This document shows, in pieces, positions 25,731-27,005 of a stretch of DNA of 54,637 bases. The notes beneath the pieces were generated by a model. That model was not told where the DNA came from. It made no database searches and saw only the letters and a program-made list of their open reading frames with translations. The stretch is taken from the NCBI RefSeq assembly GCF_900112865.1, contig NZ_FONH01000023.1:1-54637 (forward strand), given 5' to 3'. Origin of the DNA: Dyella marensis. Lineage in GTDB: Bacteria; Pseudomonadota; Gammaproteobacteria; Xanthomonadales; Rhodanobacteraceae. Position 1 is the stretch's first letter; each line of letters starts with the position of its first letter. The position numbers were made by a program, and so were the translations under genes.

Positions 25731-25837
25731 TAGGTTGGGGTGAGCCGCAGGCGACTGCGAAGGCAGGATGCCGTAGCGAACATCCGCGTAGCGGATGGCC
25801 CGAAGGGCGGGCTGCCGATGCAGCCTGTAACCCCAAC
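25730..25837 (-). repeat. Family 1 repeat, truncated inverted copy (copy B)
   Basis: This 108-bp copy begins with the shared GTAGGTTGGGGTGAGC end, then runs through the internal part of copies A and C as its reverse complement (GACTGCGAAGGCAGG ... TGTAACCCCAAC). It stops there: the variable loop and the second terminal box are missing. Its first base is the last base of the tag stop codon. Confidence 0.85.
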
Positions 25838-25863
25838 ATCGCCCCGCCACGATGCGTCGCACT

Positions 25864-25985
25864 CGTCATTCCGGCGCAGGCCGGAATCCAGTAGCGGGAA
25901 TGCCGGATTTTCGGACCATCCGTGCAGGCTTTTCGCGAACATCGAGCGATACCGTCACTGGATTCCGGCCTGCGCCGGAATGACG
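25864..25985. repeat. Family 2 palindromic repeat, copy 1
   Basis: A 122-bp element with inverted ends: CGTCATTCCGGCGCAGGC... and its complement ...GCCTGCGCCGGAATGACG. The terminal stems are about 28 bp and also carry an internal GCC-rich hairpin. Similar CATTCCGG-type palindromic elements occur widely in proteobacteria and are generally regarded as MITE- or REP-like. A second copy in the same orientation is at 26882. Confidence 0.88.
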
Positions 25986-26046
25986 GTGTTTTCGCGGGTT
26001 TGGGGTTTGCCACCGGACTACGCTGAAATAACGGCTGATATAGGCG

Positions 26047-26187
26047 AGCAACTACAGACAACCGGTAGTTGCTTTGCTAGCTTGATTCGCGTTGTCCGCG
26101 GAGTGCTTCGAGTCCCATCGCGGACAACCACGGCAGCAATGCCGTGAGAGTCGCGGGCCAAGGGTGCAACGAACACCCCTGACCCGC
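26047..26187 (+). ncRNA. Four-hairpin structured RNA / leader candidate
   Basis: Four consecutive stems with no mismatches are visible. They are AGCAACTAC/GTAGTTGCT (26047-26055, 26065-26073), GTTGTCCGCG/CGCGGACAAC (26091-26100, 26119-26128), CACGGC/GCCGTG (26129-26134, 26141-26146), and a two-part stem GCGGG...GGGTG/CACCC...CCCGC (26153-26187). The second and third stems are directly stacked. The array ends 30 nt before a 33-codon ORF with an RBS-like GACGGAG, so it may be that ORF's 5' leader or an independent RNA. It resembles none of the riboswitch classes that I know. The exact transcript ends are unknown. Confidence 0.5.
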
Positions 26188-26217
26188 TAACCATCACCAA
26201 CTGAGACGGAGTCGATC

Positions 26218-26319
26218 ATGGCTAAGCCAGATCATACGGCACCCGCCCGCCCGCCGATCCCCTCGGCGACACCCCCACCGCCCCGCCGGGCCGTCCGCCT
26301 ACCACGCGGACACGGCTGA
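26218..26319 (+). CDS. 33-aa proline-rich small ORF
   Basis: ATG at 26218 follows GACGGAG by about 5 nt and encodes MAKPDHTAPARPPIPSATPP..., 33 residues rich in Pro, Arg and Ala and with no hydrophobic segment. A short hairpin with a T-run follows 5 nt after the stop, so leader, ORF and terminator form a self-contained unit of about 300 nt. It may be a regulatory leader peptide, since Pro- and Arg-rich runs can stall ribosomes, or a decayed N-terminal part of the DUF6124-like gene downstream, which lies in the same frame. Translation is unproven. Confidence 0.4.
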   Translation: MAKPDHTAPARPPIPSATPPPPRRAVRLPRGHG

Positions 26320-26323
26320 CGAA

Positions 26324-26341
26324 GCGCGCCAGCGCGTTTTT
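26324..26341 (+). terminator. Weak hairpin-plus-T-run terminator
   Basis: GCGC-GCCA-GCGC followed by G and TTTTT lies directly after the 33-codon ORF. The stem is only 4 bp, so efficiency is doubtful. Confidence 0.4.
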
Positions 26342-26565
26342 CGCGGAAAGCCTCATTAGATTTTTCCGAGCCGTCCTACCCGGCACGTAGCCGCGTGCGA
26401 CGCCGAAAACCGCGCGAGCGTTCCCCCTGTTTCGCCATCGAGCCGCCCGACCGCCCATGCATGGGCGTCGGTGGAACCCGCGTCCGTGTGATCGCGGCGC
26501 GCCGTGCTGTCCCGGCGGCGCGCCGTTTACGGAGCGAGGTCGCGGCATCACGCAAGGAGCAAGCC

Positions 26566-26868
26566 ATGCACACGCTTGGAGAACCCTGGATCACCCGCCA
26601 CACCCGGTACTTTTCAGATCCCGACGCCGATCCGGAGGCCCTGTTGAACGACGCCACCGAGTGGCTGCACTACGCGCACAGCGCCGTCCTGCTGCTGGCC
26701 GAACTGGTCCACGACCGCAGCATCGTCGATGCGCGCCGCCTGCCCACCATGCTGGAGGGTATTGCGGCATTCATCGATATGGGCATGAGCTGCGCGACGC
26801 AGGCGCATGGGCGGATGCAGTGGCAGCGGGTGCAGACGGAGACGGCTGAGGATCTTCACAGCGCATAA
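26566..26868 (+). CDS. DUF6124/DUF3077-like small protein
   Basis: A 100-aa protein with AAGGAGC 6 nt before its ATG. The core FSDPDADPEALLNDATEWLHYAHSAVLLLAELVHDRS...RRLPTMLEGIAAFIDMGMSCATQAHGRMQ resembles the pattern of DUF6124/DUF3077 proteins (PDxDxEALLxxAxExL... then a helix leading into a GIxxxIxMG motif). This family is common in Pseudomonas as small helical proteins of unknown function, often in multiple divergent copies. No signal peptide or membrane segment is present. The gene is flanked on both sides by copies of the family 2 repeat. The frame is open upstream to 26395, but the RBS fixes the start. The family match is from memory. Confidence 0.65.
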   Translation: MHTLGEPWITRHTRYFSDPDADPEALLNDATEWLHYAHSAVLLLAELVHDRSIVDARRLPTMLEGIAAFIDMGMSCATQAHGRMQWQRVQTETAEDLHSA

Positions 26869-26881
26869 GCCACGCAACAGC

Positions 26882-27005
26882 CGTCATTCCGGCGCAGGCC
26901 GGAATCCAGTAGCGGAAGTGCCGGATTTTCGCGACCACCTTCAGGCGCTTTCTCGCGAAAACCGAGCGATATCGTTACTGGATTCCGGCCTGCGCCGGAA
27001 TGACG
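26882..27005. repeat. Family 2 palindromic repeat, copy 2
   Basis: A 124-bp element with the same terminal arms as 25864-25985 and about 80 percent internal identity by eye (AGCGG-AGTGCCGGATTTTCG... GAGCGATATCG). It is in the same orientation, and starts 13 bp after the DUF6124-like stop. Confidence 0.88.

Follow-up and report, generated by a model that had tools for sequence, protein, structure and literature searches.

Within the window, a 54,637-nucleotide stretch of Dyella marensis DNA analyzed as a whole (contig NZ_FONH01000023.1), positions 26052 to 26868 probably form an antisense-RNA-controlled two-ORF unit, in which a SymR-type off-switch, detached from SymE and amplified, acts on a mok-like ORF1 located ahead of ORF2 (Table 1). 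The antisense gene itself, including the element, its strand, its −10 box and its relation to SymR, is well supported as a prediction from sequence comparison.

Table 1. Coordinates of the cassette and neighboring features in the window
Feature	Position	Strand	Evidence or remark
Family-2 palindromic repeat, upstream copy	25864–25985 (122 bp)	+	Neighbor, outside the cassette unit
Putative sense promoter: CAGACA (26055–26060), 17 nt, TAGCTT (26078–26083)	26055–26083	+	Left edge of the unit conserved in 23 leaders; assignment tentative
Leader hairpin 1 (sense RNA)	26091–26128	+	Covariation; G-U excess in sense
Leader hairpin 2 (sense RNA)	26129–26146	+	Covariation; G-U excess in sense, weak per pair
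SymR-like antisense RNA gene	26150–26223	−	RF01809 symR, 39 bits, model 1–77, below gathering score 61; strand asymmetry
Hairpin 3	26153–26187		Covered by the SymR-like antisense RNA gene
Hairpin 4	26191–26221		Covered by the SymR-like antisense RNA gene
ORF1, 33 codons, putative mok-like leader ORF	26218–26319	+	
Putative antisense −10, TATGAT, within ORF1 codons 5–7	26231–26236	−	101 of 140 starts; frozen synonymous sites in codons 1–8
Structured spacer carrying the ORF2 ribosome site	26320–26565	+	27-row alignment
ORF2 (100 aa), putative effector with a predicted two-helix structure	26566–26868	+	15 genome copies; dN/dS 0.20; model pLDDT 87
Family-2 palindromic repeat, downstream copy	26882–27005 (124 bp)	+	Neighbor, outside the cassette unit

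The original prediction placed a hairpin array, a 33-codon ORF and a small-protein ORF between two palindromes, and all of these were found there. The array comprised four hairpins (26091 to 26221), and the region from 26005 to 26340 folded with a z score of −4.9, better than 100 of 100 shuffles. Its reading of the cargo, namely, a structured RNA beside a member of a multicopy small-protein family and probably an undescribed regulatory module, also held. A small terminator that had been proposed was not borne out, as the stem at ∼26322 to 26341 appeared in the fold but had no counterpart in the 26 other aligned spacers, and a scan of 25990 to 26900 detected no terminator and no promoter on either strand; the putative sense promoter was likewise not called by a consensus promoter scan. 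The DUF6124/DUF3077 label was dropped because ORF2 had no Pfam or NCBIfam match at E values of ≤10 and neither family occurred among the Pfam matches (E ≤ 1) of 26 members.

Results of an Rfam scan in E-value mode revealed that the minus strand at 26150 to 26223 matched symR (RF01809) over the full length of the model (E = 3.8e-6), overlapping the Shine-Dalgarno site and the start codon (26218 to 26220) of ORF1. The minus-strand match recurred at all six distant loci chosen for comparison and, at E values of ≤0.05, at 16 of 20 further loci, being absent from the other four; all of these scores were below the gathering score, the E. coli control excepted. In a class-wide scan, symR matches occurred in 13 of 369 genomes, including that of the window, none of them over the cutoff, which E. 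coli exceeded (14 controls). Among the 14 places outside the window's genome, nine had the hairpin and start-codon layout, two (L287 and L288) looked like chance matches and were left out, and the remaining three were all in one genome (G472). The R1162 antisense family of Rfam was also considered and rejected, since its matches were on the other strand of the same hairpins and scored below symR where both matched (L152 had R1162 without symR).

The variation of paired bases differed between the two halves of the array. In 59 aligned leaders, hairpins 1 and 2 contained 104 G-U and 20 C-A cells, whereas hairpins 3 and 4 contained 4 G-U and 58 C-A cells, the rows being related and the counts thus nonindependent; per pair, the split between G-U and C-A was 10 to 2, 3 to 2, 1 to 5 and 1 to 4 from hairpin 1 to hairpin 4. 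Because a C-A in the sense strand is a G-U in the antisense strand, hairpins 3 and 4 vary like an RNA folded in antisense. These 59 rows were kept from 73 after removal of reverse-strand shadows, short rows and duplicates. A larger set of 140 starts (141 found, one dropped with the chance loci) was, unlike the 59 rows, selected with a pattern that fixes GGGCC, GACC, CCA and [AG]TGGCT; the invariance of these letters, and of one C-A pair in hairpin 3, is therefore built in, the letters of the −10 box lying outside the pattern. In this set, hairpin 3 was more stable in antisense in 139 of 140 starts, a result partly built in by the pattern. For the leader upstream of hairpin 3, the sense strand was the more stable one in no more than 64 of 113 cases.

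A candidate promoter for the antisense RNA lies inside ORF1. On the minus strand, TATGAT was present at codons 5 to 7 in 101 of the 140 starts. Of the 39 starts lacking it, 33 differed in nothing but the two middle letters, which are the least constrained positions of a −10 box. Synonymous sites of codons 1 to 8 were nearly frozen (pS 0.046, pN 0.123), and codon 6 encoded H, S, L, D, T or I across the 140 starts while the antisense −10 stayed. A functional N-terminal peptide (MA..DHT) was therefore rejected, the residues at codons 3 to 8 varying under a constant antisense −10, and the similar first residues of otherwise unrelated proteins (MA..DHT and MA..NHK) may arise because these codons appear to hold the antisense promoter. 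No conserved −35 was detected at the expected place in the 140 start regions. A run of four U's followed antisense hairpin 3 in 8 of 112 Rhodanobacteraceae starts versus 10 of 25 Burkholderiales starts.

To describe the leader as a family, 23 leaders were aligned, giving 41 consensus pairs, seven of them with double changes, and the resulting model matched 75 of 233 Rhodanobacteraceae genomes in 12 of 26 genera (at most 12 candidates scored per genome). Deeper scans of 10 genomes yielded 5 to 30 leader matches each, some being reverse-strand shadows of the same hairpins. The hairpin 3 pattern was found in at least 111 stretches of named genomes; among the 80 listed, 72 fit the leader model at ≥35 bits, and the other eight (L184 at 19.9 bits and seven with no match) were taken as chance. 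The 72 listed matches came from Dyella, Luteibacter, Rhodanobacter, Fulvimonas, Burkholderia, Paraburkholderia, Trinickia, Collimonas, Paludibacterium and P. aeruginosa PA7. Since 16 of them, 14 from Burkholderiales, matched only from model position 96 to 99 through 170, corresponding to hairpins 3 and 4 plus the start codon, this portion looks like the shared core, with hairpins 1 and 2 as an extension best seen in Rhodanobacteraceae.

When paralogues within one genome were compared, hairpins 3 and 4 differed at 0.60 to 0.67 of their loop positions and at 0 to 0.15 of their stem positions, and every copy compared had a different loop pair (12 of 12 in the window's genome, 5 of 5 in G003 and 6 of 6 in G005). 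Antisense pairing usually starts at loops, so this variation looks like an address system; alternatively, as synonymous sites of ORF2 differ at 0.58, it may be unconstrained drift.

Of the 32 distinct copies, 29 had an ORF1 of exactly 33 codons, and a contig end truncates one of the three exceptions. Behind the start region, codons 9 to 33 of ORF1 were weakly constrained (dN/dS 0.72). The spacer to ORF2 measured 231 to 246 nt in 28 copies, the window having the upper value, and looked structured in 27 aligned rows, with 74 pairs, 16 of which carried double changes (counted without a shuffle control). ORF2 of the window type is evidently under purifying selection at the codon level, with the dN/dS given in Table 1 obtained by a simple Nei-Gojobori count from 25 rows (24 distinct copies) whose synonymous sites are near saturation. 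Several candidate relatives of its protein were set aside: likeness to WXG100/ESAT-6 (best E value 0.35, none at ≤0.001) was treated as that of a generic helical hairpin, Max-protein matches (best E value 0.018) as coiled-coil noise, and common ancestry with the ∼110-aa type of ORF1 was rejected at an hhalign probability of 0.4%, though both are predicted two-helix proteins. PADLOC gave no match for five proteins, and a single-protein search of genome contigs found no relative.

In other genomes, different proteins follow the SymR-like start. After the first 12 residues were stripped, 101 distinct long ORF1 products formed six groups, two of them large (56 and 37 members) and four small. The Rhodanobacteraceae type is predicted to begin disordered and to end in two helices (14-row model, pLDDT 75), and the other large group, mainly from Burkholderiales, includes SymE proteins (L177 product, 51.8 bits) as well as a member, L157, with no Pfam match. 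SymE directly follows the SymR-like start in G246 (41.6 bits) and in L280 from another gammaproteobacterium (50.7 bits); within the window's genome, no SymE was found over the cutoff, the sole match scoring 12.8 bits. A short ORF1 is often followed by an ORF2, and G101 has an ORF2 behind an ORF1 of ∼108 aa too. The ORF2 types seen were the window type, a HigA-like helix-turn-helix protein (45.6 bits, cutoff 47.7) and XAC0095-family proteins (43.1 and 65.7 bits, cutoff 34). Two further partners were observed: in P. aeruginosa PA7 (L195, 3841 to 3918), a symR-like core of 48.6 bits precedes a 104-aa ORF with no Pfam match, ∼600 bases from a CRISPR array, and in gammaproteobacterium G561 (L279), the start region precedes an unusually large ORF of 233 aa, possibly a histidine-kinase-type ATPase.

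These observations suggest that a known RNA off-switch is reused for different small proteins. There is perhaps an even chance that SymR-type RNA is a portable off-switch more generally, with a fixed scaffold of ∼75 nt plus the first eight codons that recombination has joined to small proteins of unrelated kinds, namely, SymE, two-helix proteins and the leader ORFs before HigA-like and XAC0095-family genes; the richest genomes examined have 17 to 18 full-length leader matches, and with diversified loops each copy would have a private antitoxin.

The cassette is both repeated and dispersed. Besides the window copy of ORF2, the same genome has 14 others at 66 to 73% identity, and 18 matches to the full leader model were listed there, 14 of them at ≥157 bits and one internally shortened. 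Full copies of the unit (∼800 bp) in three congeners were 68 to 77% identical in DNA to the window copy. In G000, G003 and G005, 37 distinct pieces were recognized, among which two sets had a left flank of ≥1.3 kb in common between species, one across all three; right-flank matches were shorter (348 to 630 nt), many around the repeat-rich C25 copy, and no pair shared both flanks between species. One G003 copy had been counted twice (overlapping L307 and L317), so that the 38 pieces, 33 starts and 25 ORF2 rows compared correspond to 37, 32 and 24 distinct copies, respectively. The interval between tag and the metallohydrolase gene was ∼400, 340 and 140 bp in the congeners G005, G003 and G002, respectively, with neither cassette nor repeats; it contained a duplicated tag fragment in G001, and no metallohydrolase gene was found adjoining tag in G004. 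Flank sharing and empty sites together indicate frequent gain, loss or movement of cassettes. How copies arise or disappear may be visible at L293 (G000 C28:429500–437500), where partial cassettes with duplicated flanks are clustered in 8 kb.

The original prediction read the palindromes as two copies of a MITE-like element that can act, with the cargo between them, as a composite gained or lost by recombination. The comparison of the tag-metallohydrolase interval upheld one part of this, since the site was empty in three of five congeners and something was thus gained; nothing in it showed the palindromes as the carrier. The two palindromes do have the same internal orientation (88% identical when compared directly versus 78 to 79% inverted) and flank both sides in the window, and family-2 repeats are enriched beside cassettes, lying within 1 kb at 11 of 46 places versus 0.4 expected, counts that rest on 40 scored out of 137 candidates. 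Four of those 11, however, are one cluster. Of the 17 cassettes or pieces in the window's genome, seven have such a repeat within 1 kb, and the window copy alone has one on each side. The homologous unit, with a sharp start at ∼26052 and an end near the ORF2 stop, has both ends between the palindromes. Moreover, the leader turns up in other genera amid very different surroundings, which counts against the composite by the original prediction's own criterion of cargo with unrelated flanks. A composite is thus refuted as a general mechanism and highly improbable even here: the palindromes do not bound the cassette unit, and their enrichment deserves a separate explanation. Two other repeat arrangements were noted, namely, four family-2 copies with ∼259-bp spacing beside the C25 cassette (G000 C25:260818–261718) and another repeat family (GTAGGTTGGGGTGAGCCGCAGGCG...), which occurs at 25733 to 25838 after the tag gene and directly 3′ of ORF2 in six other copies (G000 L014 to L019), where it seemingly supplies some stop codons.

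As we envisage the antisense-controlled unit, the sense promoter would produce an mRNA with the hairpin leader, ORF1, the structured spacer and ORF2, while the promoter buried in ORF1 would produce an RNA of ∼75 nt running backwards over the ORF1 start codon, the Shine-Dalgarno site and hairpins 4 and 3. Starting from the variable loops, this RNA would pair with the mRNA, presumably that of its own copy, and block translation of ORF1. ORF2, which may be toxic or growth-slowing, would then stay off if its expression depends on ORF1 translation, as that of hok does on mok, or if, in the absence of translation, the mRNA is ended early or broken down. ORF2 would be released once the antisense RNA is lost or the sense promoter fires in a burst. 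The coupling of ORF2 to ORF1 is the weakest step, and given the gap of 246 nt, polarity or mRNA decay may perform it.

If no antisense RNA were made, the array could be a plain sense-strand cis-regulator (a riboswitch, thermosensor or attenuator) with hairpin 4 masking the ribosome site of ORF1. The consensus pairs and double changes of the sense alignment would fit this reading, as would the sense-like variation of hairpins 1 and 2; the antisense-like variation of hairpins 3 and 4 argues against it, and it leaves both TATGAT in codons 5 to 7 and the symR match unexplained, so we consider it unlikely. Less likely still is a selfish or hitchhiking dispersed repeat, spread by some mobilizing activity, whose RNA serves its own maintenance rather than the host. 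Such a repeat would agree with the site being empty in three congeners and with most pieces in G000, G003 and G005 having no long common flank, but no transposase or terminal repeats were seen for the unit, ORF2 is under purifying selection and has no match in the plasmid and phage records searched. This alternative overlaps the antisense switch, since a toxin-antitoxin unit can be selfish too.

Comparison with known systems places the antisense-controlled cassette nearest to SymE/SymR (RF01809, PF08845). Like SymR, the predicted antisense RNA of the cassette measures ∼75 nt and would lie over a start codon and Shine-Dalgarno site; its match to the symR model is full length but, at 39 bits, below the gathering score of 61. 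The E. coli SymR promoter is described as embedded inside symE (PMC1891008); the cassette likewise has its putative antisense promoter inside an ORF, with a conserved −10 but no −35 found. In contrast to SymE, which has an AbrB fold, ORF2 is unrelated, with no Pfam match and a predicted two-helix structure, and the cassette has a short ORF1, many copies and extra leader hairpins. A LexA box precedes symE, whereas none was found for the cassette, two box patterns giving only two poor single matches over 23 leaders. In hok/mok/sok, an antisense RNA likewise covers a short upstream ORF ahead of an effector, and Sok represses hok by way of mok, its leader ORF (review PMC4147584). The two ORFs of the cassette are 246 nt apart, and ORF2 is no small membrane peptide; we claim no sequence relation. 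By comparison, mok overlaps hok. PtaRNA1 (RF01811) is also an antisense antitoxin RNA, with weak matches at the place of symR in L154 and L107; symR scored higher in both, and the window had no PtaRNA1 match even at E values of ≤10. The overlap at these two loci would suggest, from the model matches, that the two antitoxin RNA families may be related. DUF3077/DUF6124 proteins resemble ORF2 in being small, multicopy and helical by prediction, yet have no sequence match to it or its family members, and the literature searched listed no paper on DUF6124 and a single one on DUF3077. Among the matches listed for SymE/SymR, ptaRNA1 and XAC0095 literature, a scope mostly outside subscription journals, titles and abstract openings contained no description of SymR-like RNAs on non-symE genes.

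A type I antitoxin RNA is usually reported together with a single cognate toxin. In the present family, conservation lies in the RNA and variation in the protein, with many copies per genome and address-like loops, which offers a naturally occurring set of variants on which the avoidance of cross talk among antisense RNAs could be tested. New toxin-like small proteins could be found with the RNA, rather than the protein, as the search query. If the portable off-switch is real, what is inherited would be the RNA antitoxin, and the toxin would be the part that is exchanged.
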